46,114 bases of DNA from Crenothrix sp. D3. GTDB lineage: Bacteria > Pseudomonadota > Gammaproteobacteria > Methylococcales > Methylomonadaceae. The stretch spans positions 1 to 46,114 of the forward strand of contig MBQZ01000020.1 of the NCBI GenBank assembly GCA_002134785.1, in the 5' to 3' direction. Every line of letters starts with the position of its first letter. The stretch's first letter is position 1. This document shows, piece by piece, positions 5,452-46,114 of this stretch. The notes beneath the pieces were generated by a model. It searched no databases. It had not been told where the DNA came from and was given only the letters and a program-made list of their open reading frames with translations. A program made the translations under genes and the position numbers.

Positions 5452-7290
5452 TTAGTGTAATTTTTGCAATAACGCAGGATCAATTCGACAAGCACCTAAC
5501 TCTGGATGGTCTACCAAATCTTGTTCAACATCGCGCTGACTTGGCAATTGAAAGGCGAGTCGGTTAATTTTACCGTCTGAAAATTCAAACTCTATCACAC
5601 CGCCTTTGGCACGCGGACTGCCATCTTGAGTGCTGAATAATAAGATGCCGATATTATTTATCTGATTACCTTGTTGGTCGGGGATAAGTCGCGCACAGCT
5701 TAATTCGTTAATGGCTAGCCCAGAAAAAACTTGTGCTAATTGGTGGGCATTCACAATCGTACCTTCACCTGAAATAGTGATGGCGATAGGCGGTGTTTCG
5801 CTCGGTGTAGCAGGGTTAAGCAGCTTCTCCAAGCCAAAATCACCTAAATAATTTTGTAACAATACCGTCCCTGCACCATTTTTTGCCGTGCTGAGTAAAG
5901 GAAATATCTGGCTTTCCATTTCGGCTTTATTGGGATTTTTTAGCACCGACACTAATTGCCGCTCAATGGATTTAAGTGCCGTGTAGCGTTGTTCTTTCTT
6001 TTGGCTGGATTCGCCGATTTGTTGCCAGTCTGCGGCAACATTGACCGTTAAGCCCATTGCTTTCATCGCAAGATAATCCTCATTTACCAGACAGTTACTA
6101 AAGTTTTTGTCGCGGTAACTTTGTGCTGTTTTGGCGGCAACGTCATTACTCAGTAATTGTTGTGGATTGAGATTGTAGTTTTTCCAATCATTGTTGTTGG
6201 CTAAAAAATAATAAATAACTGCATTGCGATCAAACTTGTTAAACCCTAGGTCTTTCAGCACGGTTTTTAATTTGTGGCATTCCGTTTCTACCTCGGTGTA
6301 GTTATGCCAATCGGGTTTTAAATTGGGTTTAGCAGGGTGCTTAGATTGCTCAAGCAGTTGTATTAATTTCACGTCCCCCGTCGTTGATTTTATGGGTAAA
6401 TAGCCCATTTCCTCCCACGATAGATCACGCGCATCGGGTGTGCCGTCCGCGCTGGTTTTTAGTAATAAAGACGCGGTAATTTCTGGATAAACTTTTAACT
6501 CGCCGAGTGGTTTTGTTTCTGAACTGAGAATATTAATTCCGCCTTCTGCAACCGCATATACCTTAAATGAGGTTTCATTCAGCGTGCCTGTTTTACCTGA
6601 AAAACTAACAATCGCGGGTAAAGTATGTGATTCTGAACTGTGTTTACCCGTGCTTGGCGCAGGTTTTGTAGCGGTTGGCGTACTGCCTACCCATTGACTG
6701 GCAAACTGTCCAAGTAGTGAAACCCCCATACCCACACCCGTAAATGCCAATAAATTACTGGCGGTTGACATATCACCTGCCAGACTTGACATATCAACAT
6801 CACTGTTGGCACTGGAAAAAAAGCTATAGTCAACACGCGTGTCTTTACCAGAATCTAAGCGCATCCACGGAGTTAACGTTTGTTTTTTCGCATCAAACTT
6901 AAAATTACATTTACCCGAACCTGCTTGGTATAAAAAGCCAGCCGCTTCATTAGTAAACTTAAGATTACTGTTATAAACAGTAAACACCAGCGCGGACGAC
7001 AAATCGCTTTTGGTATAGGACGGTGTTCTATCCTGACAACCGCTTTTTAAACTATTCTCGCCCTTAAATTCAAATTCTGTGAGCAAGCGCACATAATAAT
7101 CATCACCATCAATGGCTGAAAAACTGGGTAAGGGTGCAAATGAGCGAGTATTAGTGGATTGCGCAGAGCTTGCATCACTGGCAGCATTTGCTGTTGGATA
7201 ATCAATAGCGACTTGCCGCGTGGATGCACAGCCCGCTAATAAGAGGCTGGTAAGTAAACTGAAGGTTAAAGACGGGGGATAATATGACAT
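5452..7290 (-). CDS. Large uncharacterised lipoprotein
   Basis: The 612-residue product starts with a lipoprotein signal peptide: a hydrophobic stretch at 8-18 and the lipobox LLAGC, with Cys21 as the predicted lipidation site. The mature part begins with a Ser/Ala/Thr-rich linker. There is a short glycine-rich hydrophobic stretch near residue 175 (LLAFTGVGMGVSLLGQFASQ) and several spread cysteines (CQD, GKCNF, ETECHKL, NCLV, LSCARL, GACRI) that could form disulfides in the periplasm. I do not recognise a domain family and assign no function. It is convergent with spoT and separated by the nested inverted repeat. Confidence 0.8.
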   Translation of the reverse strand: MSYYPPSLTFSLLTSLLLAGCASTRQVAIDYPTANAASDASSAQSTNTRSFAPLPSFSAIDGDDYYVRLLTEFEFKGENSLKSGCQDRTPSYTKSDLSSALVFTVYNSNLKFTNEAAGFLYQAGSGKCNFKFDAKKQTLTPWMRLDSGKDTRVDYSFFSSANSDVDMSSLAGDMSTASNLLAFTGVGMGVSLLGQFASQWVGSTPTATKPAPSTGKHSSESHTLPAIVSFSGKTGTLNETSFKVYAVAEGGINILSSETKPLGELKVYPEITASLLLKTSADGTPDARDLSWEEMGYLPIKSTTGDVKLIQLLEQSKHPAKPNLKPDWHNYTEVETECHKLKTVLKDLGFNKFDRNAVIYYFLANNNDWKNYNLNPQQLLSNDVAAKTAQSYRDKNFSNCLVNEDYLAMKAMGLTVNVAADWQQIGESSQKKEQRYTALKSIERQLVSVLKNPNKAEMESQIFPLLSTAKNGAGTVLLQNYLGDFGLEKLLNPATPSETPPIAITISGEGTIVNAHQLAQVFSGLAINELSCARLIPDQQGNQINNIGILLFSTQDGSPRAKGGVIEFEFSDGKINRLAFQLPSQRDVEQDLVDHPELGACRIDPALLQKLH

Positions 7291-14950: not shown

Positions 14951-15112
14951 GAATAGAAAAAGGCTAAGGGCTGAATAAAGCGTGGATTTTAGCATTTTTA
15001 CGCAGGGCTTTCTTGCATTACCCAGTTTCAAGGGTTTGTGCTACCCTTTCCTAACACGCTTAGTGGCATTGCCAATCAAATAGAGCCTTTTTTATTTAGT
15101 GGAGTAAAAATC

Positions 15113-16912
15113 ATGACCAGAAACGCAACCATTTATGATATTTGTGATCGACCTGTGCTTGACGGAGACTGCGCCACTGAATCAGGGCGCAATCTTCGAT
15201 TTGCCTACAAGAAGCTGCTTGGACACCCTGCCCTGAAGTATTTACTTTTAAAGTGGTGCTACCTGCCCTTAACAGAACTATCTGTTTATCAAGCGATGAT
15301 GCACAACGCCATGCAGGCAAGCCCTGATAATTGGCAAGATCCTCAATGGATAGCAACCACTTTTCGCCCGTTGGCACAACTCCTCGATAGCATCGAAAAT
15401 CCCCGTTGGCAACAACGCGAAAAAGCTGAGCAAGTCACTGTCGAACTGACGAAAACCCAGATGGAGACCCTAATTGATAGCTGTCTGCATGATATTTTTC
15501 GCGTGTGGGATAAGGATAAAAAAGACCCGTGGTTTCCAGTGGCGGCGCAGGTTGAGTTATCGGGCGATGACCATACTGACGGTGACAACTTTATCAATGT
15601 ATTACAGGGACTGGGGTCACAGGAATACAAAAATATCACGGTATTGTTCGCGTTAATACGCTGCTTTTTAATGAGCAATCCACGTCTTCGTAGACTGATC
15701 CGCAGACCTTATATCGGTATTTCTGAGCCGATGACTTCTTCTTTTACTTGGCTTTGGCACAGAATCGCTTTTTCTGATGTGAATTTTTTTGAACATTTGC
15801 TGGTATTTTTAGAGTCTGATACGACGCACAAGCAATATTATGAACGTATTATCCCGATTTTGGAGAATCTGCTGCGCTATTGTGTGTGTACCAGTCGGGA
15901 ATGGCTGGAGACACCCAATAATCACACTCAACACCCTGCAATCACCTGTTTACCAAAAGACGCTGACGGCAAACCGTTGTGCAGGCTTTCAGAAGAAACG
16001 TGGCAAAAGAAACGAGATCTTGGTTTTGGTGATTACGTTCCCGATACCGATACCACTTTTCTCACCTTGGCAATGGCAAAAAAGTGGCTGGATTTCGTGC
16101 AGAAAGAACAGTTGTCAGTGGATAAAGTGCTACTTGAAGAATGCGAATCACTGTTGAATTACCCGTGGGTAGAAATTATTAGTGAGTATCAGGTCGGCGG
16201 CAACTACGCTTCCAATCCACCTACCATTCACATCACCAAGCCACTGGATTACCAAGGCGCGGTGCCAATCTGGTTCGACAAAACTTTCAAGAATGCCGAT
16301 GGTCGGATAATTCGAGAAATGCTGGGCAACGAAATTTGCCCCGGCCACAATATGGACATCCTCGATTCTATTCTGCTTAATCGAAAACAGTGGAGGGCTT
16401 TAGAGGGTGAAAACCTGCTCTTTTTACATCGGCTACTCGATTTTCATCATCGCGCTTTTATCAGCGGTAATTTCCGTCATGAAACCGCTTTGAAATATTA
16501 TTTACCCGAAATTTATACCTACTATCTGGGGCGGATGTACCAGACTTATTTGACGCTCAGTGAATCAGAAAAACACAGACTTGACCCTGAACATAAAATT
16601 GAGAGTATGCGCCAGATAGCTCTACAGTATTGCAAAGACGAACTAATCGGCTATTCCCTGAATGCCTTCGATGCCGCGCTGGCAGTTTCCGCACTGGTGC
16701 TGTTGGAATATGAACCGAAACACGATGGCGTTATTGCCACTGGACTCAAAGTAATGCGTGACGCAGCAGGAGAAGGCAAACATGGGCATCCTTACCACGC
16801 TTATGAATGGAACCGTATGCGTCACCCAACCCGAATTTTGATTGGTAGCGAAGTATCAACCTCATTGTTTGTGCTGAGAGCGTGCAGTGTAGCGATGCGT
16901 TATCTTTACTAA
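15113..16912 (+). CDS. Uncharacterised 599-residue protein
   Basis: I do not recognise this family. I choose the ATG at 15113 (MTRNATIYDICDRPVLDGDC) because a GGAG site lies 8 bases upstream; the longer frame would need a GTG and has none. No signal peptide or membrane segment is visible and the protein is rich in Trp, Tyr and His. Features include YVPDTDTTFLTLAMAKKWLD near the middle, PGHNMDILDSILLN, and the C-terminal GKHGHPYHAYEWNRMRHPT followed by IGSEVSTSLFVLRACSV. The spacing of these segments faintly recalls alpha/alpha-toroid proteins such as terpene-cyclase-like folds (DxDTT), but this is only a guess. It is divergent from the protease gene. Confidence 0.8.
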   Translation: MTRNATIYDICDRPVLDGDCATESGRNLRFAYKKLLGHPALKYLLLKWCYLPLTELSVYQAMMHNAMQASPDNWQDPQWIATTFRPLAQLLDSIENPRWQQREKAEQVTVELTKTQMETLIDSCLHDIFRVWDKDKKDPWFPVAAQVELSGDDHTDGDNFINVLQGLGSQEYKNITVLFALIRCFLMSNPRLRRLIRRPYIGISEPMTSSFTWLWHRIAFSDVNFFEHLLVFLESDTTHKQYYERIIPILENLLRYCVCTSREWLETPNNHTQHPAITCLPKDADGKPLCRLSEETWQKKRDLGFGDYVPDTDTTFLTLAMAKKWLDFVQKEQLSVDKVLLEECESLLNYPWVEIISEYQVGGNYASNPPTIHITKPLDYQGAVPIWFDKTFKNADGRIIREMLGNEICPGHNMDILDSILLNRKQWRALEGENLLFLHRLLDFHHRAFISGNFRHETALKYYLPEIYTYYLGRMYQTYLTLSESEKHRLDPEHKIESMRQIALQYCKDELIGYSLNAFDAALAVSALVLLEYEPKHDGVIATGLKVMRDAAGEGKHGHPYHAYEWNRMRHPTRILIGSEVSTSLFVLRACSVAMRYLY

Positions 16913-23099: not shown

Positions 23100-24827
23100 C
23101 TAATAATCACACCGCCAAATATGAGCGGCTCTTTGAGCTATTGTTTCTTGACGTTTTTGCAAACTATCTTTATTCCATAAAGGCGATTTTATCTCTTGAG
23201 TTAATCTATATTTACTTTCTAAATAAAAAGGTTGTTTTTCCGCATAACTTTTATTTTTAATATCACGATTTATTCGTGGTTCAAGCAGTGTGTAATTACC
23301 TAAGCGATAAATATAGTTTTCTTGTTCTTTATAAGAAAAAAACGACTCCCAATCACTATTCGGATTCTCTGGTAAAATATGTTCAATGGTTGCATCATCA
23401 TCTTCAAAGTCGTAACCATACCCGTTTTCATATTCCAAAGAAAATAGAATATAGCGAACAATTTTCTTTCCAGAACTAGTTTTTATTGTCTTATAACTAA
23501 AATCGTTGATAAAGACATCATCATCGATATAAACTCTTTTTAAATTTTGAAACACTTGTTCTGGTAATTTTATAGAACCATCGTTTAATTTTATTGCGGC
23601 TTCATTATAGCTTCTTTCCAATTCATTGGGATTTTTACCACCAATAATGTTATAACGAAATGAAATAACTAAACAAATTTTTAAAATTTTATAAAAATTA
23701 TCTGGGTTATCTATATAAAATTTCTCATAAGCTGAAAATAACAAAGGATAGAGTTGTTTAACTTTAAATAAATCAATTATTTTTATAGCATTACGAATAT
23801 CTTTGGCGCAACTATCATCGATACGCCACAGTTCATGACTTGCTTGTGAAAGTGCTTGATAGAAATAAGCATATTTTTCCAGTTCATCTAATAATTTCAG
23901 AACTTCATCACCTCTATCATTAACAGGGAACTTTTGAAATTTGTTTTTAATAGACTTGAATAATCCTTCTTTTCTTATAAGCTTTTCTTTTGAATTAATA
24001 TAAATACGCAAAAATTCGGGTAGTTTTTTAATGCTGACAGTATCGGAAATTTTTATCCATTGTCTTTGAATATGCTCTAAATCATGTTCTGAATTGACAA
24101 GAGAAAATAAATAATTTTTTAATAAATCGGTTGATGTTAATTCAACACCGCGTGCATTTAAAGTTTCAAATACAGTGTAGGCATTAATTTCATCAACTAC
24201 ATTAATTTTTATAAATAGCAATTGTCTTGCAATAGAATCATTTAAAAAATTAGAAAAATCACACCCTGTTTTTAAATTTAATTCTGACAATTTTGCTAAA
24301 AAATATTTATAAGCACCCCATAATAATCTATCGGAGTCGTTTAATGATTTAGGATTTATAGGAGGTTTAAATTGCAATAAATTGCTTTGATAAAAGTTAT
24401 TATTATTTTTATTTAAAAATAACTTACTTGAATAAAAAAGAGAGCTTGGATTTTTACGCCCCAAGTAATCATTTCTCAACAATGAAACTCTTTCTGCATT
24501 CTCTTCTACCTCAATGCCGCTTTCTTGTAATTGCTTAATCTTCGCAATAACTGCAATCGCAATAATACTCAGCGTGACCAAGCGTTGCTGTCCATCGATA
24601 ATAAAAAATTCCTTTTCATTACTGCCATCTTGTAAAACAATAGCTCCCATGTAATGATAAGAACTACTATCGGCTTGTAAATTAATAATATCTTGCCATA
24701 AATCATCCCAATGTTCTTCTTCCCATGAATAATCGCGTTGATATTTAGGAATATGATATATTTTTCCATTGCCAATAATATCGCTGAAATTAGCGGTATC
24801 TGTATCTAACACATTGGTTTTAGCCAT
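23100..24827 (-). CDS. DUF262/DUF1524 (GmrSD-like) nuclease
   Basis: The 575-residue protein has both halves of GmrSD-type enzymes in one chain. The N-terminal DUF262 part shows YHIPKYQRDYSWEEEHWDDL near 29-48 and FFIIDGQQRLVTLSIIAI near 73-90, the DGQQR motif tied to nucleotide use. The C-terminal DUF1524 HNH-like part shows ATIEHILPENPNSDW and RLGNYTLLEPRINRDIKNKS. Relatives restrict phage with modified (glucosylated) cytosine in DNA. The gene is clearly more AT-rich than its neighbours, lies after the eno terminator and interrupts the eno-ftsB pair. These are signs of horizontal acquisition. No methylase or other defence gene accompanies it. Confidence 0.9.
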   Translation of the reverse strand: MAKTNVLDTDTANFSDIIGNGKIYHIPKYQRDYSWEEEHWDDLWQDIINLQADSSSYHYMGAIVLQDGSNEKEFFIIDGQQRLVTLSIIAIAVIAKIKQLQESGIEVEENAERVSLLRNDYLGRKNPSSLFYSSKLFLNKNNNNFYQSNLLQFKPPINPKSLNDSDRLLWGAYKYFLAKLSELNLKTGCDFSNFLNDSIARQLLFIKINVVDEINAYTVFETLNARGVELTSTDLLKNYLFSLVNSEHDLEHIQRQWIKISDTVSIKKLPEFLRIYINSKEKLIRKEGLFKSIKNKFQKFPVNDRGDEVLKLLDELEKYAYFYQALSQASHELWRIDDSCAKDIRNAIKIIDLFKVKQLYPLLFSAYEKFYIDNPDNFYKILKICLVISFRYNIIGGKNPNELERSYNEAAIKLNDGSIKLPEQVFQNLKRVYIDDDVFINDFSYKTIKTSSGKKIVRYILFSLEYENGYGYDFEDDDATIEHILPENPNSDWESFFSYKEQENYIYRLGNYTLLEPRINRDIKNKSYAEKQPFYLESKYRLTQEIKSPLWNKDSLQKRQETIAQRAAHIWRCDY

Positions 24828-36621: not shown

Positions 36622-36975
36622 ATGGCGTACTCAAAAGATTTCCGACAAAAAGTGTTATTGATAAGAGAAGAACGAGGACTGAGTTTATTAGAAATGGCGG
36701 AGTTGATTGGTGTCGGTGTAGCCAGTGTATTTCGCTGGACTAAGAAACCAGAACCGAGCAAAACGAGAAACAAGCCTGCGACCAAGATTGATAGGGAGGC
36801 GTTAGCGCGGGATGTAGAAGAAAAGCCCGATGATTTTCAGTATGAACGAGCCATCCGATTGGGGGTCAGTGAAAGCCGCGTTGGCAGGGCATTGAAGCGA
36901 TTAAACGTAAGTCGAAAAAACAATACTTCGGACAGTTTTTATGAAATGACAGCCTATAAAAAGATAACTCATTGA
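36622..36975 (+). pseudogene. IS630-type transposase N-terminal part, truncated
   Basis: A 117-codon frame starts MAYSKDFRQKVLLIREERGL and includes MAELIGVGVASVFRWTKKPE, KPATKIDREALARDVEEKPD and YERAIRLGVSESRVGRALKR. These are the two helix-turn-helix units of IS630-family orfA proteins. After NVSRKN (about codon 97) the sequence becomes unrelated to the family, and the DDE catalytic orfB is absent. A start with no strong ribosome site and the missing second half indicate a dead fragment that might still make a DNA-binding peptide. Confidence 0.78.
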
Positions 36976-37323
36976 AAATTAAAAACTTTATTTTTTTGAA
37001 TGAGATATTAAAAATCCTTTTTAAATCAATTGATTACAAAAATATCCGAACTATTGCAATATATGAGGTAATGAAAAACACCTGTTTTCCGTCCCCTAAA
37101 AGATCAATGATAAAATCGGTTATGATTGCCGCCCCTAGTTTTGCTAGCTTTCCAATTGTCCGAAGAAAAAATTCACGCTTACAAGCAATTTATGGCTTTA
37201 GCAGGATAGTTTTGCCCCAAGGTTAGGGATTTCATAGCACTAGCTAAACTTTTCCAGAACCCTAAATTTCCTCTGTTCATCTTCTAACAACACGCTTTCG
37301 GGTGATGCGTAACATCAGTTAAT
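36976..37323. other. AT-rich gap before the kdp operon
   Basis: About 350 bp contain one 84-codon plus-strand frame (36972-37226) of low-complexity composition with no ribosome site, plus short fragments in other frames. None resembles a known protein. It probably combines IS630 debris with the upstream control region of the kdp genes. I see no further repeats or RNA genes here. Confidence 0.45.
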
Positions 37324-37342
37324 ATTTTTACGACTTTTTTAC
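37324..37342 (+). promoter_or_regulatory. Candidate KdpE operator
   Basis: The bases ATTTTTACGACTTTTTTAC lie 74 bp before the first kdp-operon start. They consist of two TTTTTAC half-sites ten bases apart, as expected for an OmpR-family dimer on one DNA face. From memory, the E. coli kdpFABC operator has a very similar T-rich ATTTTTATAC-TTTTTTTACA form. kdpE is encoded at the end of the same operon, so autoregulation under low potassium is expected. I could not place a clear -35/-10 pair after it. Confidence 0.5.
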
Positions 37343-37415
37343 TCGTTTCTCTTGTACATTAAACAACAAACAATCACAAATGGTTGCATTTTTTACAAAC
37401 CAAGAGGCGATGTAG

Positions 37416-37508
37416 ATGGACATAACCTATTTATTCATTACAGCACTATTTTTTGTCAGCACAGCGTTGTTAAGCAAGGGGTGCGAGAAATTACGGGGGC
37501 AATCATGA
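37416..37508 (+). CDS. 30-residue membrane peptide preceding KdpF
   Basis: An ATG with a good AGAGGCG ribosome site eight bases upstream opens a 31-codon frame, MDITYLFITALFFVSTALLS then KGCEKLRGQS. It ends in a TGA that overlaps the kdpF ATG (ATGA). The peptide is one hydrophobic helix followed by a short basic/cysteine tail. I recall similarly sized peptides, starting Met-Asp and ending in Cys-Glu-x-Leu, ahead of kdpF in other proteobacteria, but they are usually unannotated. The operon position and translational coupling suggest a KdpFABC accessory or assembly role. No function is established here. Confidence 0.72.
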   Translation: MDITYLFITALFFVSTALLSKGCEKLRGQS

Positions 37509-37594
37509 ACTGGCTTTATGTGCTGAGTGGTGGTTTAGCGGTGGCAGTATTTATTTACTTGCTGGTGGCGTTATTTTATCCAGAGAAGTTCTAA
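37505..37594 (+). CDS. kdpF: Potassium-transporting ATPase small subunit KdpF
   Basis: The 29-residue peptide MNWLYVLSGGLAVAVFIYLL plus VALFYPEKF is the single-helix subunit that stabilises KdpFABC, with the typical ALFYPEKF end. The start at 37505 overlaps the upstream stop, and the stop overlaps the kdpA start (TAATG). An 80-codon longer reading of the same frame exists but only adds sequence that reads through the preceding gene in another frame, so I reject it. Confidence 0.93.
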   Translation: MNWLYVLSGGLAVAVFIYLLVALFYPEKF

Positions 37595-39375
37595 TGACTG
37601 CGCAAAGTTTTTTACAAATTATGCTGTATTTGGTGGTTTTACTGGCATTGGTTAAACCGTTGGGTGCTTATATGGCGCGGATTTATCAGGATGAACCTGC
37701 GGGTTTGAATCGTTGGTTAGCGAGTTTTGAAAAGCTACTTTATCGATGTTGCGGTATTGATGCTAAACAGGATATGCGTTGGGCGCAATACGCACTGGCT
37801 TTGCTGGTATTTAACTTGTTGGGCTTGTTGGCAGTTTACGCATTGCAACGTCTACAGGCTTTTTTGCCATTGAATCCGCAAAATCTAGCGGCTGTTAATC
37901 CTGATTCAGCATTTAACACCGCTGTCAGTTTTGCCACTAATACCAATTGGCAAGGCTATGGAGGCGAAACCACGATGAGTTATCTCACCCAAATGCTAGG
38001 GCTGACCGTGCAGAATTTTTTATCGGCGGCGAGTGGCATGGCGGTATTAGTGGCATTAGTACGCGGATTTATACGCCGTAATAGTGACGGTATCGGCAAT
38101 TTTTGGGTGGATATGACACGCAGTACCTTGTATATCTTGCTGCCTTTGTCCTTAGTTTTGGCTATGTTGTTAGTGGGTCAAGGGGTGGTGCAGACAACAA
38201 ACCCGTATCAAACGGTGACGTTGACGGAAGCGGTCAGTTACCAGCAATCCACGCTAGATGCGACGGGTAAACCTGTCACTGAAATCATTAAAAGCCAACA
38301 ACAAACTCTCGCTTTAGGCCCTGCGGCTGCACAAATCGCCATTAAACAACTCGGCACAAACGGCGGCGGTTTTTTCAATGTCAATTCTGCTCACCCGTTT
38401 GAAAATCCCACGCCACTGTCTAACTTTTTAGAAATGTTGGCTATTTTATTAATTCCTGCGTCCTTGTGTTACAGCTTTGGCGTGATGGTGGGTGATACCC
38501 GTCAAGGTTGGGTGATTTTAGCGGCAATGACGTTGATTTTTACCAGCTTAGTTTTTGTTACGGTAACGGCTGAACAAAGTGGCAATCCCTTGTTAAAAGT
38601 CGATCAAATCGCCTCAGAGTCACAAGCAGGCGGCAATATGGAAGGCAAGGAAACCCGTTTTGGTATTGTTAACTCAGCATTATGGGCAGTCGCAACTACA
38701 GCGGCTTCTAACGGTTCGGTCAATGCTATGCACGATTCATTCACTCCATTGGGTGGTTTAGTGCCGATGTGGTTGATGCAGTTGGGTGAAGTGATCTTCG
38801 GCGGTGTAGGTTGTGGTTTATACGGCATGATTGTGTTTGCCATTGTCGCGGTATTTATCGCAGGGCTAATGATAGGACGCACGCCTGAATATTTGGGCAA
38901 GAAAATTGAAGCCTTTGAAATGAAAATGGCGGCGGTGATTATTTTAGTACCGCCGTTGATGGTGTTAGGCGGTACAGCGTTGGCATTAATGCTGGAGGTT
39001 GGCAAAGTGGCAGTATTGAACAATGGCGCACATGGCTTTAGTGAAGTGTTGTATGCGTTTTCCTCTGCTGGTAATAACAATGGCAGCGCGTTTGGGGGTT
39101 TGTCCGCTAACACGCCGTTTTATAATTTGATGCTGGGGTTAATCATGTTGTTTTCTCGTTATTGGTTGATGATTCCCGTGTTAGCTATTGCGGGTTCACT
39201 TGCTAACAAAAAAATTGTCCCAGCGGGTGCAGGTACATTGCCCACGCACACGCCGTTGTTTGCGGTGTTGTTGATGATTACCGTATTAATGGTGGGCGCG
39301 TTGACTTTCGTTCCCGCTTTAGCCTTAGGCCCGATTGTTGAACATTTGCAAATGACCCAACAGGTGATGCCATGA
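37594..39375 (+). CDS. kdpA: Potassium-transporting ATPase subunit A
   Basis: The 593-residue channel-like subunit binds and translocates potassium in the high-affinity KdpFABC complex of the inner membrane. Its four selectivity-filter regions are visible: [17 protein letters not shown] near 112, [20 protein letters not shown] near 252-270, [18 protein letters not shown] near 370, and [20 protein letters not shown] near 490-510. About ten membrane helices surround them. It is slightly longer than the E. coli protein (557). Its stop overlaps the kdpB start by four bases. Confidence 0.98.
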
Positions 39376-41444
39376 GTAACAATGCTGCTTCTACTGCTTT
39401 ATTTGAACCCGCGATTGTACGGCAAGCGTTGCTGGATGCGTTTTTAAAACTAACACCGCGCCAGCAATGGAAAAATCCTGTGATGTTTGTTGTCTATTTG
39501 GGTAGTATTTTAACCACGGTTTTATGGTTGCAAGCACTCAGTGGCAACAGCGAAGAACCCGCGTGGTTTATTTTAACCATCACGCTGTGGCTATGGTTCA
39601 CGGTGTTATTTGCTAATTTTGCCGAAGCCGTGGCAGAAGGACGCAGTAAAGCGCAAGCCGCGTTTTTACGCACCGCTAAACGCGATATTACTGCCAAGAA
39701 ATTAGACGAACCGCGTTACGGTAGTAATTATTCCAAGGTGTCGGGTTCTACTCTGCGCAAAGGTGATGTGCTGTTAATCGAAGCAGGGGATTTTGTCGCG
39801 GGTGATGGTGATGTCATTGAAGGCGTGGCTTCGGTGGATGAAAGCGCGATTACGGGTGAAAGTGCGCCTGTGATTCGTGAAGCGGGCGGTGATTTTAGTT
39901 CGGTGACAGGCGGCACGCGGGTATTATCCGACTGGTTAGTGGTGCGTATTACGGCTAATTCGGGTGAAACGTTTTTAGATCGCATGATTAGCATGGTGGA
40001 AGGCGCGAAACGGCAAAAAACCCCCAATGAAATCGCACTGACTATTTTATTAGTCGCGTTGACGTTGGTGTTTTTAATGGCAACGGTGACCTTATTGCCG
40101 TTCTCCTTATACAGCGTGGAAGTAGCGGGCGCAGGTAAACCGATTAGTATCACCGTGTTAGTGGCTTTGCTGGTGTGTTTGATTCCAACCACCATCGGCG
40201 GCTTATTATCGGCGATTGGGGTTGCAGGTATTGGGCGCATGATGCAAAAAAATGTCATTGCGACTTCAGGGCGAGCGGTGGAAGCGGCGGGGGATGTTGA
40301 TGTGTTGTTGCTGGATAAAACAGGGACTATCACATTAGGCAATCGCCAAGCCGCGCTATTTATTCCCGCTAAAGGCGTGAATGAAAAACAACTCGCCGAT
40401 GCCGCACAATTATCTTCTTTAGCCGATGAAACCCCAGAAGGACGTAGCATCGTAGTGTTAGCCAAACAAAAATTTGGTTTTCGTGAGCGTGATGTGCATT
40501 CCTTAGGAGCAACGTTTGTACATTTCAGCGCACAAACGCGTATGAGTGGCGTGAATTTACGAGGACGGCAAATCCGCAAAGGCGCGGAAGATGCGATTCG
40601 TGGTTATGTACTTGAACAAGGCGGACGGTTTCCCGAAGAATTACAAAAAAGCGTGATTGATGTGGCGCGGCGCGGCAGTACACCTCTATTGGTTGCCGAA
40701 GGGGCGCGAGTGTTGGGCGTGATTGAATTAAAAGACATCGTTAAAGGTGGCATAAAAGAACGCTTTATTGAATTGCGACAAATGGGTATCAAGACCATCA
40801 TGATTACAGGTGACAACCGTTTAACCGCCGCCGCGATTGCCGCCGAAGCGGGCGTTGATGACTTTTTAGCCGAAGCCACACCCGAAGCGAAGTTAGCTCT
40901 GATTCGCCAACATCAAGCCGATGGGCGTTTGGTTGCCATGACGGGGGACGGTACGAACGACGCGCCAGCTTTAGCCCAAGCCGATGTTGCCGTTGCCATG
41001 AACAGCGGCACACAAGCCGCGAAAGAAGCGGGCAATATGGTGGATTTGGATTCCAATCCGACCAAGTTGATTGAGATTGTCGAAACAGGCAAACAAATGT
41101 TAATGACACGCGGGGCGTTGACCACGTTTTCAATTGCTAACGATATAGCAAAATATTTTGCGATTATTCCAGCGGCATTTGCCACCACTTATCCTGCGTT
41201 AAATGTGCTGAATGTGATGGGCTTAGCAACCCCTGCCAGCGCGATTTTATCGGCAGTGATTTTTAACGCGCTCATCATCATTGCCTTGATTCCATTGGCG
41301 TTGAAAGGTATCCGCTATAAACCTGTCGGTGCAGAAAAATTACTGCAAAATAATTTGCTGATTTACGGTGTCGGTGGGCTGATTGTGCCGTTTATCGGTA
41401 TCAAGGCAATTGATTTACTGCTCGTTGCGATGAATCTGGTGTAA
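39372..41444 (+). CDS. kdpB: Potassium-transporting P-type ATPase subunit B
   Basis: The 690-residue P-type ATPase energises KdpFABC. The phosphorylated residue is Asp315 in [15 protein letters not shown]. The actuator TGES motif lies near 155 ([15 protein letters not shown]), the nucleotide-binding part includes [15 protein letters not shown], and the hinge region has [20 protein letters not shown] and [20 protein letters not shown]. Length is near the E. coli protein (682). All key motifs are intact. A 283-codon open frame on the opposite strand is a codon-bias shadow. Confidence 0.99.
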
Positions 41445-41454
41445 GGAGTAAGTC

Positions 41455-42033
41455 ATGTTGAATTATTTTAAACCTGCCGTGATGTTGTTACTGTTATTGA
41501 CGTTGTTGACAGGCGTGATTTATCCCCTAGTTGTCACCGCGTTTGCGCACACATTTTATGCTGATAAAGCTAACGGTAGCTTGATTTACGATGCTAAAGG
41601 GCAAGCGGTTGGCTCAGCGTTGATTGGGCAATCGTTTACCCAAGCGAAGTATTTTTGGGGACGGGCTTCGGCGACTTCGCCTTATCCTTACAACGCTGGT
41701 GCGTCCAGTGGTTCTAATTTAGGGCCTACGAATCCTGTTTTAGTAACTGCGGTTAATGCGCGAGTTAAAACCTTGCAAGCGGCTGAGCCAAGCAACAAAA
41801 CGGCTGTGCCTGTGGATTTAGTCACCGCCTCAGCCAGTGGACTTGATCCACATATCAGCGTGGCGGCAGTAGAATATCAGCTTAAACGGGTCGCCAAAGC
41901 ACGAAACATGGATGAAAACAAACTGCGTGAATTGGTCAATGCACAGACTGAAACGCGGCAGTGGTTTGTATTCGGTGAACCTAGAATTAATGTATTACAG
42001 TTAAATCTGGCATTAGACCAAGCAACACACTAA
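41455..42033 (+). CDS. kdpC: Potassium-transporting ATPase subunit C
   Basis: The 192-residue subunit has one N-terminal membrane helix (AVMLLLLLTLLTGVIYPLVV) and a periplasmic or membrane-surface domain with GSALIGQSFTQAKYFWGRAS, YPYNAGASSGSNLGPTNP and VTASASGLDPHISVAA, all family hallmarks. It helps potassium binding and complex stability. It follows kdpB by 10 bp with a GGAGTAAGTC ribosome site. Confidence 0.97.
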   Translation: MLNYFKPAVMLLLLLTLLTGVIYPLVVTAFAHTFYADKANGSLIYDAKGQAVGSALIGQSFTQAKYFWGRASATSPYPYNAGASSGSNLGPTNPVLVTAVNARVKTLQAAEPSNKTAVPVDLVTASASGLDPHISVAAVEYQLKRVAKARNMDENKLRELVNAQTETRQWFVFGEPRINVLQLNLALDQATH

Positions 42034-42067
42034 CGTTCTTTTAATTTCACATTTGATGGATAACACA

Positions 42068-42373
42068 ATGTCTACGATAAAATCAGCCTTAAAATTTAGC
42101 GGCGGCTTAATACTTGCCCTCGTTTCGCAATACACGCTTGCCGATAATTCATACCAATTACCACCTAGTAAACTGCAAATGGAAAACTGTGAGCGTGAAT
42201 CTCTGGCATTACATTCGGGTACGGTTGAGCAAGAACGGGTATTTAATAAACAAAACCATTTTGAAGTGCGTCATGAGATACAGGCAGACGATGGTACGGA
42301 GTGGTCGGTACTGTGCGATTTGGCAACAGGAAAAATCATTGGCGAACAGAAGATGTTAGGTGACAGTAAGTAA
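42068..42373 (+). CDS. Small exported protein between kdpC and kdpD
   Basis: The 101-residue product (start chosen at 42068; an ATG at 42056 is the alternative) has a signal peptide: basic MSTIKSALK, a hydrophobic SGGLILALVSQYTLA core, and cleavage near ADN. The mature part of about 76 residues contains LALHSGTVEQERVFNKQNHF, VRHEIQADDGTEWSVLCDLA and TGKIIGEQ. The alternating 'EVR-EI--DDG--W-V-CD--TGKIIG' pattern resembles a single PepSY-like unit. Two cysteines may pair. The gap before kdpD is two bases, so the gene belongs to the operon. A periplasmic modulator of KdpD or of the pump is a reasonable guess only. Confidence 0.82.
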   Translation: MSTIKSALKFSGGLILALVSQYTLADNSYQLPPSKLQMENCERESLALHSGTVEQERVFNKQNHFEVRHEIQADDGTEWSVLCDLATGKIIGEQKMLGDSK

Positions 42374-42375
42374 CC

Positions 42376-45099
42376 ATGAGCGATGACCGTCCAGACCCAG
42401 ATCAATTATTGGCGCGTGTTGAACGCGACAATGCCAAAGCCAAACGCGGACGATTAAAAATTTTCTTCGGTGCGGCGGCGGGCGTAGGTAAAAGTTACGC
42501 CATGTTATTGGCAGCGCGTGAACGCCGTGCTGAAAATCTCGATGTGGTTATTGGGCTGATAGAAACACATGGACGCAAGGAAACACAAGCATTGCTGAAA
42601 GGTTTGGAAGTGTTGCCCACGCGCCAAATTGATTACAAAGGCACGATGCTACATGAGTTCGACATTGATGCCGCATTAAAACGCCGCCCTGCGATTATCA
42701 TCGTTGATGAATTAGCTCACACTAACGCACCCAGTTCGCGCCACCCCAAACGCTGGCAGGATATACATGAATTACTCGACGCAGGGATTGATGTTTATAC
42801 CGCGCTTAACGTTCAGCATTTGGAAAGTCTTAACGATGACATCGGGCAGATTTCTGGTATCCGCGTCTGGGAAACCGTGCCTGATACGGTATTTGAAGAT
42901 GCTGATGAAATCGAATTGGTGGATTTACCACCCGATGAATTATTACTGCGGCTGAAAGAAGGCAAAGTTTATTTACCTGAACAAGCCCAACACGCAGTGC
43001 AGCATTTTTTTCGTAAAGGCAATTTGATTGCTTTGCGGGAATTGGCATTGCGCCAAACCGCTAGCCGTGTTGATTTGCAAATGCTTAATTACCGCGAAGA
43101 CCACGCAATACATGAAGTATGGCAAGTCAATGAGCGGATTTTAGTGTGCATAGGGCCTAATGCGTTGGCTGAACGTTTGGTGCGAGCGGGCAAGCGTGTA
43201 GCCACCAGTTTGCGGGCAGAATGGATAGTGGCTTATGTAGAAACGCCAAATTTGCAACGCTTATCCGCCGAAAAGCGTGACGGTATCTTAAGAATTTTAC
43301 GCTTAGCCGAACAATTGGGCGCGGAAACGGTAACGCTCAGTGCGCCTGAAATGAGCGAGGCGATTATTAAGTTTGCGGGTGAACGCAATATTAACAAGAT
43401 TGTGGTGGGTAAACCCAGTCGGCGCGGTTGGAAACGTTGGTTATTAGGGTCAGTTGTCGATGAGCTAATCAGTCACGCTCACAATGTTAATATTTATTTG
43501 CTAGGCAGTCCGCAAATGGCAGACAGTGAGATTAATCTGTTTCATAAAAACCCCTTACCTGGTTTGCGCCAACGGACAGAGGCTAAAAAGCAAGGTTATT
43601 ACAAGGGCTATGTTTGGGCAGTACTAGTGCCGCTACTCAGTGCTGTTATTGCTTATCCAATGATAGGTCGCTTAGAACTTGCCAATTTAGTGATGGTGTT
43701 TTTACTGGGCGTGGTGTTTGTGGCGACGCGTTTTGGGCGTGGGCCATCGGTGTTGGCTTCAGTACTCGGTGTCGGTCTGTTCGATTTTTTGTTTGTGCAA
43801 CCGTATTACAGTTTTTCGGTGTCGAATGGTCAGTATTTAATCACCTTACTCACCATGTTAGTCGTGGGTGTGGTTATCAGTAATTTAATGGTAAATGTAC
43901 ACTCGCAAGCCAAAGTTGCTGCGCATAGAGAAAGACGGGCGAGCGTGTTGTATGCCATGAGTCGGGAACTGGCAAGCAGTCAAAGCGAGGAGCAAGTTGT
44001 CCGTATCGCAGTACGGCATTTACATTCCGAATTTAGCAGTCGCAATGTTATTTTATTCCCCGACAGTAACGGGGGCGTACTGACTCCTAAGCAAAAAAGT
44101 ATCGCTGAATCACTGCATGGCGCGGATTTGAGCGTGGCGCAATGGGTATTCGATCATAATGAAATGGCTGGGCAGGGAACGAATACTCTCCCCAGTGCAG
44201 AGGCGATTTACTTTCCCATCTACGGCGAAGACAGAGTATTGGGAGTGTTGGTGTTATTGCCTGTTAATTTACGCCGTGTATTTTTACCCGAACAACAAAA
44301 ATTGCTAGAAACATTTTTACGGCAAATAGGGCAAGCGATAACCCGTATTCGCCTTGCCGAACAAGCCAAGACAACACAAATGCAGGTGGAAACAGAACGT
44401 TTGCGCAATTCCTTGCTCAGTGCCATTTCGCATGATTTACGCACACCCTTAGCCACTATTATTGGTTCAGCCAGCACGCTGTTAGAAGGCGAAGGACGAC
44501 TACAACCCCAAGACAAATTGGATTTAAGTCGCGTGATTGTTGATGAAGCGGAGCGTATGTCGAACTTGATTAACAATATTCTGGACATGGCGCGGCTGGA
44601 TGCGGGTGTGGTGGAACTTAATAAACAATGGCATCCCTTAGAAGAAATTATCGGCACAGTATTGACGCGGCTGCACAAACATTTAGAGGGTCGCCCTGTG
44701 AAAGTCAAATTGCCTGAAGGCATACCAATGGTATTTGTTGATGCAGTGATGATTGAACAAGTGCTGATTAATCTCTTAGAAAATGCCGTGCGCTATACGC
44801 CAGAGGGCAGTCAATTGGATATTACCGCTGAGATGTCAACACACGCAGTTGAGATTGCGGTGGCTGATTATGGAGCTGGCATTCCAAAAGGACGCGAAGA
44901 ACATTTATTTGAAAAATTTTATCAAGCCAGACACGAAGCGGCGCAAAGTGGGGTCGGTTTGGGTTTAGCAATATGTCGTGCTATTGTGGAAGCCCACGGC
45001 GGACGCATTAACGCGCAAAATAGACCCGAAGGTGGCGCAGTGTTTACCTTCGTACTCCCTATTAATCAACCGCCACCTGTTATGGACTTGGAAGAGTAA
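42376..45099 (+). CDS. kdpD: Potassium sensor histidine kinase KdpD
   Basis: The 907-residue sensor starts with a KdpD domain containing Walker A IFFGAAAGVGKSYAML near 29-44 and IIIVDELAHTNAPSSRHPKR near 113. A Usp-like domain follows near 255-370 (KIVVGKPSRRGWKRWLLGSV). Four closely spaced membrane helices (about 410-510, DUF4118) and a GAF-like region come next, then the transmitter: His686 in SAISHDLRTPLATIIGSAST, and the ATP site with LINLLENAVRYTPEGSQLD, VADYGAGIPKGREEHLFEKF and GVGLGLAICRAIVEAHGG. Order and length match E. coli KdpD (894). kdpE begins one base after its stop. Confidence 0.98.
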   Translation: MSDDRPDPDQLLARVERDNAKAKRGRLKIFFGAAAGVGKSYAMLLAARERRAENLDVVIGLIETHGRKETQALLKGLEVLPTRQIDYKGTMLHEFDIDAALKRRPAIIIVDELAHTNAPSSRHPKRWQDIHELLDAGIDVYTALNVQHLESLNDDIGQISGIRVWETVPDTVFEDADEIELVDLPPDELLLRLKEGKVYLPEQAQHAVQHFFRKGNLIALRELALRQTASRVDLQMLNYREDHAIHEVWQVNERILVCIGPNALAERLVRAGKRVATSLRAEWIVAYVETPNLQRLSAEKRDGILRILRLAEQLGAETVTLSAPEMSEAIIKFAGERNINKIVVGKPSRRGWKRWLLGSVVDELISHAHNVNIYLLGSPQMADSEINLFHKNPLPGLRQRTEAKKQGYYKGYVWAVLVPLLSAVIAYPMIGRLELANLVMVFLLGVVFVATRFGRGPSVLASVLGVGLFDFLFVQPYYSFSVSNGQYLITLLTMLVVGVVISNLMVNVHSQAKVAAHRERRASVLYAMSRELASSQSEEQVVRIAVRHLHSEFSSRNVILFPDSNGGVLTPKQKSIAESLHGADLSVAQWVFDHNEMAGQGTNTLPSAEAIYFPIYGEDRVLGVLVLLPVNLRRVFLPEQQKLLETFLRQIGQAITRIRLAEQAKTTQMQVETERLRNSLLSAISHDLRTPLATIIGSASTLLEGEGRLQPQDKLDLSRVIVDEAERMSNLINNILDMARLDAGVVELNKQWHPLEEIIGTVLTRLHKHLEGRPVKVKLPEGIPMVFVDAVMIEQVLINLLENAVRYTPEGSQLDITAEMSTHAVEIAVADYGAGIPKGREEHLFEKFYQARHEAAQSGVGLGLAICRAIVEAHGGRINAQNRPEGGAVFTFVLPINQPPPVMDLEE

Positions 45100-45100
45100 T

Positions 45101-45793
45101 GTGACTAACGCCCCCGTGATTATTGTCATCGAAGACGATCCGCCGATACGGCGTTTTTTGCGCACGGGTTTGAACGCTCAAAACTTTACGGTGTTTGAAG
45201 CAGACACAGGCAAACAAGGTATTATCGAAGCGGGGGTGCGTAAACCCGATTTAGTCATATTGGATTTGGGTTTACCCGACATGGACGGTGTTGAAGTTAT
45301 CAAAGCCATACGCACTTGGTCAGCCATACCGATTATTATTCTTTCAGCGCGTAGCAGTGAACAACATAAAATCGATGCGTTAGATGCAGGCGCGGATGAT
45401 TATTTAACCAAACCGTTTGGTTTTGGTGAATTACTGGCGCGTATCCGCGTGGCATTACGCCATGCTATTCGACCAATGGAGCACATAAAAGCCGATGTGT
45501 TTGTCACTGCTAATCTCAAAGTGGATTTACATAATCGAGTGGTCAGTATCGATGAGCAAGAAGTTCATCTTACGCCGATTCAATACCGATTGTTGGTTGT
45601 CTTGGTGAAACACGCAGGCAGAGTCTTAACGCAGCAACAAATTCTCAAAGAAGTATGGGGTCCGTCTTATTCAGAAAATGCCCATTATTTGCGTATTTAT
45701 ATGAGCCAACTACGGCAGAAATTAGAAGCCGATCCCACGCAGCCTAAGTTTTTATTGACCGAGTCGGGCGTTGGGTATCGATTGAAAGTTTAA
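45101..45793 (+). CDS. kdpE: Response regulator KdpE
   Basis: The 230-residue OmpR/PhoB-type regulator starts at the GTG at 45101, in the kdpD stop region (TAATGTG). Earlier starts in the same frame would overlap kdpD heavily and add unrelated residues. The receiver has IIVIEDDPPIRRFL, the phosphorylated Asp55 in LVILDLGLPDMDG, and the Lys in DDYLTKPFGFGELL. The winged helix domain shows VHLTPIQYRLLVVLVKHAGR and LKEVWGPSYSENAHYLRIYM. It is expected to activate this operon when potassium is low, acting at the candidate box near 37324. Confidence 0.97.
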   Translation: MTNAPVIIVIEDDPPIRRFLRTGLNAQNFTVFEADTGKQGIIEAGVRKPDLVILDLGLPDMDGVEVIKAIRTWSAIPIIILSARSSEQHKIDALDAGADDYLTKPFGFGELLARIRVALRHAIRPMEHIKADVFVTANLKVDLHNRVVSIDEQEVHLTPIQYRLLVVLVKHAGRVLTQQQILKEVWGPSYSENAHYLRIYMSQLRQKLEADPTQPKFLLTESGVGYRLKV

Positions 45794-45808
45794 TTAATGG
45801 GTAGCTGT

Positions 45809-46015
45809 AACAACCTGCAAACATCCGTTTTTCGACCCGAATTAATTGCTAATAACGGATATATTCGACCCATATTTAAGTGTAAATAGCTGGGCGTAAA
45901 GATTCCTTCGTAGTGCGACGTGAAGTCGTATAAATAATTGCTTAGCTTGAGCAACCTGCGCTCCTCTGGCAGTAGCCTAAAAGAGGGTAGTCCCTACAAA
46001 ACAATGCAGGTTGTT
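45809..46015. repeat. Inverted repeat downstream of kdpE
   Basis: The arms aacaacctgca (45809-45819) and tgcaggttgtt (46005-46015) are perfectly complementary across 185 bases. A partial copy of the left arm (caacctgc) is also at 45952-45959, which could pair with the same right arm in a shorter hairpin. No gene is visible within, and no U-run follows. It may be a small non-autonomous element or a terminator region for kdpE. Confidence 0.45.
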
Positions 46016-46019
46016 TTTA

Positions 46020-46112
46020 TCAACGAGTTACCAGAATAGGCATCACGAATAAGAATATCCAAGTTAATGCGTCTTGAGTCAATCCCATAGCCATGGCAGG
46101 TGTTCGATGCGT
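46020..46112 (-). pseudogene. Possible transposase C-terminus, cut by window edge
   Basis: On the minus strand a frame enters from the edge and reads THRTPAMAMGLTQDALTWIF then LFVMPILVTR before a TGA at 46020-46022. The 'RTPAMAxGLT' string is typical of the C-terminal tail of several DDE transposase groups, where it is followed by a short helix. Only about 30 codons are visible and the last part does not look like the family, so the frame may be broken. Evidence is thin. Confidence 0.4.
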
Positions 46113-46114
46113 CC

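Follow-up and report, generated by a model that had tools for sequence, protein, structure and literature searches.

The kdp operon of Crenothrix sp. D3, which lies on contig MBQZ01000020.1 of assembly GCA_002134785.1 (46,114 nucleotides (nt), forward strand; hereafter the window), carries two small genes in addition to kdpFABCDE: one, directly upstream of kdpF, for a 30-residue single-helix peptide, and another, between kdpC and kdpD, for a 101-residue exported protein resembling PepSY domains. Kdp is the textbook high-affinity K+ pump, with a mechanism known mostly from E. coli. The pump itself is well studied; overlooked beside it are a family of single-helix peptides encoded next to kdpF and a PepSY-like protein linked to KdpC. 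The best explanation, which we consider probable, is that the peptide is a fifth small subunit of the pump, made together with KdpF, and that the PepSY-like protein is a lineage-specific addition docking on KdpC. If so, purification, structure determination and annotation of the pump in many other bacteria would have to allow for a conserved extra subunit with no E. coli counterpart, and this subunit might account for a step of regulation or coupling that is invisible in E. coli; a fusion of KdpC to the PepSY-like protein points to a periplasmic partner.

The peptide gene is real, broadly conserved and overlooked. The product in the window, MDITYLFITALFFVSTALLSKGCEKLRGQS, matches no Pfam and no NCBIfam family at E<=1, whereas the adjoining kdpF matches both. 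An open frame of 30 codons would be unremarkable by itself, and it is conservation that makes this one more than chance. Open reading frame (ORF) listings of the fetched loci contain a recurrent 30-residue frame upstream of KdpA, and a first profile, seeded by eye from the same loci that it then scanned, found the peptide in 95 of 107 loci, a count in which the copy of the window figures twice, and never in antisense. The 90 distinct sequences share the consensus MDxxYLxLxxxFFxxTxxLVxxC[ED][RK]L and make up an uncurated single-helix family upstream of kdpF, of which the window's peptide is a member.

Whole genomes tie this family to kdp almost exclusively. Profile A1, a 61-row alignment with rows chosen among the 90 distinct sequences, gave 65 matches at E<=1e-3 across 398 Pseudomonadota genomes, and 64 of these lie upstream of the KdpA gene on the same strand; the 65th, in G205, has kdpF directly downstream and a contig end nearby. 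At E<=0.01, 67 of 79 matches in these genomes are KdpA-linked, at 113-378 nt, with the G205 match beside its kdpF as a 68th. All 16 matches at E<=1e-3 in 121 Chloroflexota genomes are upstream of KdpA (119-442 nt). Over both phyla and all 519 genomes, 81 of 81 matches at E<=1e-3 thus stand beside kdp genes, a linkage that rules out a chance short ORF. Searching the PDB with the peptide profile returned only three weak matches (E=0.02 at best), which are short chains or other single helices. Plasmid records mostly list no gene for the peptide, in gene tables that are incomplete by their own description, or call it 'hypothetical protein'; eight of nine Mycetohabitans records label it 'potassium ABC transporter ATPase', a misleading name carried by WP_191287747.1, the peptide of one Mycetohabitans locus (L227, 6308-6412). 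In the open-licence PMC literature on kdp and the peptide, a scope outside which most subscription papers fall and which is no proof of absence, we recognised no paper describing the family.

The peptide is under purifying selection. Its ratio of non-synonymous to synonymous differences (pN/pS) is 0.33 over 20 independent close pairs (0.29 as the corresponding rate ratio, dN/dS), that of kdpF being 0.26 (0.20) over 57 pairs, and its changes at codon positions 1, 2 and 3 number 58, 42 and 104. A Shine-Dalgarno-like match precedes 128 of 158 peptide starts, compared with 15% of random positions. The start of kdpF overlaps the peptide's stop codon as ATGA in the window and in 76 of 157 loci overall. 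Lysine and arginine residues average 0.006 before the helix and 1.99 after it; 149 of 158 peptides carry more of them after the helix, and none carries more before it. These figures come from profile-positive sequences only and are therefore partly selected. Because the basic residues stand almost only after the helix, the peptide is predicted to lie with its N-terminus outside and its C-terminus inside.

For translation, topology, binding and effect on the pump we infer the following. The gene at 37416 would give a single-pass inner-membrane peptide with a periplasmic N-terminus and a basic, cytoplasmic C-terminus, made in step with KdpF through translational coupling. It would enter KdpFABC as a fifth subunit and would stabilise or tune the pump much like KdpF; its linkage to kdp and the coupling with kdpF speak for a stoichiometric subunit. 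A fifth subunit is what the peptide most likely is. That the frame usually sits directly before kdpF, often with an ATGA overlap, would also suit a leader ORF whose translation controls kdpF and kdpA expression by coupling or attenuation while the peptide itself has no job, and an excerpt of PMC8552747 reads the region before kdpF in Caulobacter as a structured 5' untranslated region of about 100 nt. We regard a leader as very unlikely given the conservation of residues across profile-positive loci of ten phyla, the selection on them, and the constant layout of helix and charge. The peptide is moreover kept away from the leader position in two reordered operons: L216 (G256) has the order kdpF, peptide (a weak match, E=0.002), kdpA, kdpC and then a kdpB-like frame, and Deinococcus L228 carries the coupled peptide-kdpF pair between kdpB and kdpA. 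An apparent kdpF-before-peptide order in a third locus, L059, is a start-site artefact. In and around the window's operon, Rfam models find nothing at gathering scores (36900-46114), and there is no terminator-like site in 36900-37650, the latter a weak point since only 0.5 would be expected by chance; a promoter scan of 36900-37650 found one promoter-like site, on the minus strand, against 2.4 expected and is uninformative.

KdpF is the obvious comparison for the peptide, and it raises the question of whether the two are copies of one gene. Both have about 30 residues and a single membrane helix, are encoded at the same end of the operon with coupled translation, and would by our proposal serve the same pump. 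According to an excerpt of PMC6134056, the E. coli pump depends on KdpF for its activity in vitro but not in vivo, which suggests a stabilising role. A local profile-profile match between the two families covers 15 columns with E=0.0024 in one comparison, at a probability of only 12%. We nevertheless judge it very unlikely that the peptide arose as a tandem copy of KdpF that has diverged and kept an overlapping role: the two profiles separate, with best matches coinciding in one of 207 loci (L221), and the C-termini differ, since the peptides lack the P-E-x-F type ending of KdpF and mostly end in C[ED][RK]L plus a short basic tail. Nor do the two have the same distribution, as the peptide is absent from E. 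coli K-12, where the profile's best E value is 0.7, compared with 1e-8 for kdpF in the same stretch.

Outside E. coli K-12 the peptide is widespread. An iterated profile at E<=0.01 found it in 158 of 207 distinct loci and kdpF in 201, with no antisense match for either. The 207 were drawn from 239 loci by dropping duplicates and those with less than 150 nt upstream and leaving out L107-L136, and the prevalence is biased upward by 80 loci that came from the genome contigs with KdpA most like the window's. Profile-positive loci span ten phyla; among named loci they comprise 51 of 54 from Pseudomonadota, 7 of 7 from Chloroflexota, 3 of 3 each from Planctomycetota, Nitrospirota and Myxococcota, 1 of 1 each from Rokuibacteriota and Elusimicrobiota, 1 of 2 from Acidobacteriota and 0 of 1 from Omnitrophota, and Deinococcota and Actinomycetota are positive through plasmids. 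Of the 49 profile-negative loci, 18 hold a plausible divergent frame by eye, including Sinorhizobium and plasmids of a Clostridia and a Bacteroidota species. In one more, L004 (G021), the frame about 85-180 nt upstream of kdpA is disrupted mid-way while both ends still match, which looks like recent decay or a sequencing error. A later set of 30 Acidobacteriota loci, 29 of them with upstream DNA, gave the peptide in 20 of the 29; this check is partly independent, as at least one locus (L295, from the same genome as L081) was in the training set. Its antisense control had two weak matches (E 0.6 and 0.77), against none in the other antisense controls.

The second gene has a much narrower range. 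According to the first-pass annotation, both genes would be supported if their position were conserved and selection on them purifying across several genera; the peptide shows this very broadly, whereas the 101-residue protein shows it within one order, with a pN/pS of 0.19-0.49 over ten pairs. Its ORF, 34 nt from the end of kdpC and 2 nt from kdpD, begins with what looks by eye like a signal peptide; the annotation had called the product exported. An alternative in-frame start at 42056 (MDNTM) would give 105 residues, and two relatives show MDKTM and MDNIM. The match to the PepSY family PF03413 stays below the gathering score (17.4 versus 24 bits), and the nearest solved relative is a chain of PDB 9vy3 (E=4e-10), a two-repeat PepSY protein in whose first repeat both cysteines of the 101-residue protein are matched. 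We take 9vy3 to be of the lanthanide-binding lanpepsy type. Compared with it and with PF03413 proteins, the 101-residue protein differs in having a single repeat, in being kdp-linked and in having once been fused to KdpC.

Four homologues, 91, 81, 63 and 45% identical to the window's protein, occupy the kdpC-kdpD gap as well. A profile search across 61 genomes of the window's order gave 36 matches. The ten strongest (E<=2e-13), one of them the window's own protein, are without exception kdp-linked; none of the weaker ones was found in the kdp stretches examined. Six of the ten sit between kdpC and kdpD (G000, G001, G004, G007, G030 and G046), one precedes kdpD at a contig end (G003), two are upstream of kdpA, at about 0.4 kb in G035 and 1.9 kb in G022, and the last, in G029, forms an in-frame extension of the KdpC C-terminus. 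This fused protein (L181, 4648-5484) has 278 residues, compared with a median of 193.5 for 132 KdpC frames, and by eye a short linker of about 14 residues joins the two parts while the signal peptide is missing, which is more than the mere loss of a stop codon would give. Among the 398 Pseudomonadota genomes, four have a PepSY match at E<=1e-3, the window's own included, and none outside the order is kdp-linked: in a by-eye comparison KdpA lies on other contigs than the match in G190 and G260, and in G420 no KdpA was matched. By KdpA, the window's nearest named relatives are Methylococcaceae. PepSY beside kdp is thus seen only in the window's order, which, judging by the nearest named relatives, is one of methane oxidisers.

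The soluble domain of KdpC is periplasmic, and the fusion therefore agrees with the protein being a partner of KdpC in the periplasm. We propose that the gene at 42068 gives a secreted PepSY-like protein that would dock on this domain, and a lineage-specific periplasmic KdpC partner is most likely what it is. The protein might instead act on KdpD or on K+ sensing, or bind metal, with its link to KdpC incidental. Its gene ends just before kdpD in the window, its resemblance to the two-PepSY protein 9vy3 would suit metal binding, and an excerpt of PMC5401905 reports that two lipoproteins of Mycobacterium tuberculosis, LprF and LprJ, act together with KdpD. We hold this alternative to be possible and on the unlikely side, since the one fusion is to KdpC and since the gene, in G035 and G022, is found ahead of kdpA and not near kdpD. 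Elsewhere the gap between kdpC and kdpD holds other genes (L168, L169, L176, L177, L178, L046, L106 and L225), by eye CorA-type transporters, two-helix K+ channels or porins, and on that reading it is a recurrent slot for accessory genes.

The suggestion in the first-pass annotation that both genes could encode unrecognised pump subunits is supported; that they would be parts of the pump gains weight from the near-exclusive linkage of the peptide to kdp, its coupling to kdpF, its retention in two reordered operons and the one KdpC-PepSY fusion. The two are probably separate accessories, as almost every peptide-bearing operon among the loci and genomes covered is without the PepSY protein.

Several observations tell against a fifth subunit with a PepSY module. 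A quickly built 206-row KdpA tree, with long branches flagged, has the peptide present in 157 rows, divergent in 19 (the 18 called by eye and L004) and absent by both profile and eye in 30, a pattern that needs 12 changes (mean of shuffled data 28.5); the pump can therefore do without it. Only 66 of 136 KdpA-bearing Pseudomonadota genomes have a linked match to A1 at E<=0.01; of the other 70, some with divergent forms, 36 were fetched and inspected. Nine of the 29 Acidobacteriota loci have no match at E<=0.01. Conservation along the helix shows no significant periodicity (p 0.095 for columns 5-22, 0.80 for columns 4-26), and coevolution with KdpA and KdpF, at an effective number of sequences of about 10, was uninformative and has been set aside; for both reasons we propose no binding site. 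The fusion to KdpC occurs in a single genome. Finally, each of the 16 genomes tested has KdpD, and 15 of them bear the peptide.

This last observation would also be expected if the peptide were a membrane regulator of the sensor KdpD and not a part of the pump. There are known cases of small membrane peptides that act on sensor kinases. For mycobacteria, an excerpt of PMC3618439 suggests that KdpF has a part in regulating KdpD. Presence cannot tie the peptide to KdpD, however, because the 16 genomes include that of L033, which has KdpD and no peptide, and E. coli K-12 likewise has KdpD without it. The peptide is coupled to kdpF and placed beside kdpA, not kdpD, and a peptide-bearing plasmid operon of Deinococcus radiodurans has a 365-residue universal-stress protein and no annotated KdpD in the stretch seen. 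We thus find a KdpD regulator unlikely, and still favour a subunit of the pump.

Extra genes in kdp operons, and single-helix partners of transporters, have precedents. One is the kdp operon of Clostridium acetobutylicum with kdpZ, kdpY and kdpX (Treuner-Lange 1997). Its orfZ and orfY encode hydrophobic peptides. The transcript order there is kdpZYABCXDE (excerpt of PMC5401905). As in the window, two genes precede kdpA and one lies between kdpC and kdpD, a likeness of gene order only. Picosynechococcus and Halobacterium records also show extra genes inside kdp operons, of other positions and types and with no peptide match at either locus. Accessory genes of Kdp in these groups go by the names kdpG in cyanobacteria and kdpQ in haloarchaea. 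MgtS, AcrZ and sarcolipin/phospholamban are single-helix partners of transporters. CydX is another, also mentioned in an excerpt of PMC6134056. Each of these is a microprotein with one helix by which a large membrane complex is stabilised or tuned, as we picture the Kdp peptide, a likeness of type only; unlike them, the peptide is encoded with its pump across distant phyla.

A wider picture, for and against which we see the balance as even, is that the common form of the bacterial Kdp would be a five-subunit pump with a second single-helix peptide, that E. coli KdpFABC, on which most biochemical and structural work has been done, would be a reduced form that has lost it, and that the methanotroph order would have added a PepSY module on KdpC. 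The KdpA matches in the PDB are three distinct 557-residue sequences with nearly equal scores, presumably all from E. coli.

In the window, the genes run on the plus strand in the order peptide, kdpF, kdpA, kdpB, kdpC, PepSY ORF, kdpD and kdpE. Of the complete kdpFABCDE operon reported in the first-pass annotation, KdpF, KdpA, KdpC and KdpD are confirmed by Pfam matches, and on re-checking the positions of both small genes, including the peptide's overlap with kdpF, were as it had given them.

Genes of the kdp operon in the window, with re-checked coordinates
Feature	Coordinates	Strand	Evidence or remark
30-residue single-helix peptide gene (KdpZ-like position)	ATG 37416 - TGA 37508	+	ATGA-coupled to kdpF
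kdpF, 29 residues	ATG 37505 - TAA 37594	+	PF09604 E=2.5e-7; TIGR02115
kdpA, 593 residues	37594-39375	+	PF03814 E=1.7e-247
kdpB, 690 residues	39372-41444	+	ORF and homologues beside KdpA in relatives (tblastn)
kdpC, 192 residues	41455-42033	+	PF02669 E=4e-74
101-residue exported PepSY-like protein, kdp-associated	42068-42373	+	PF03413 E=0.0057 (below cut-off); PDB 9vy3 E=4e-10; kdp-located relatives
kdpD, 907 residues, full length	42376-45099	+	PF02702, DUF4118, HisKA, HATPase_c
kdpE, 230 residues, GTG start	45101-45793	+	Identity by position and sequence

A little upstream of the operon, a 117-residue ORF at 36622-36975 contains an IS630 transposase helix-turn-helix (PF01710, E=2e-18). Two large ORFs, of 612 residues at 5455-7290 on the minus strand and 624 residues at 15038-16909 on the plus strand, have no Pfam match at E<=1e-10, and a GmrSD-type restriction endonuclease (PF03235, PF07510) is encoded at 23103-24827 on the minus strand.

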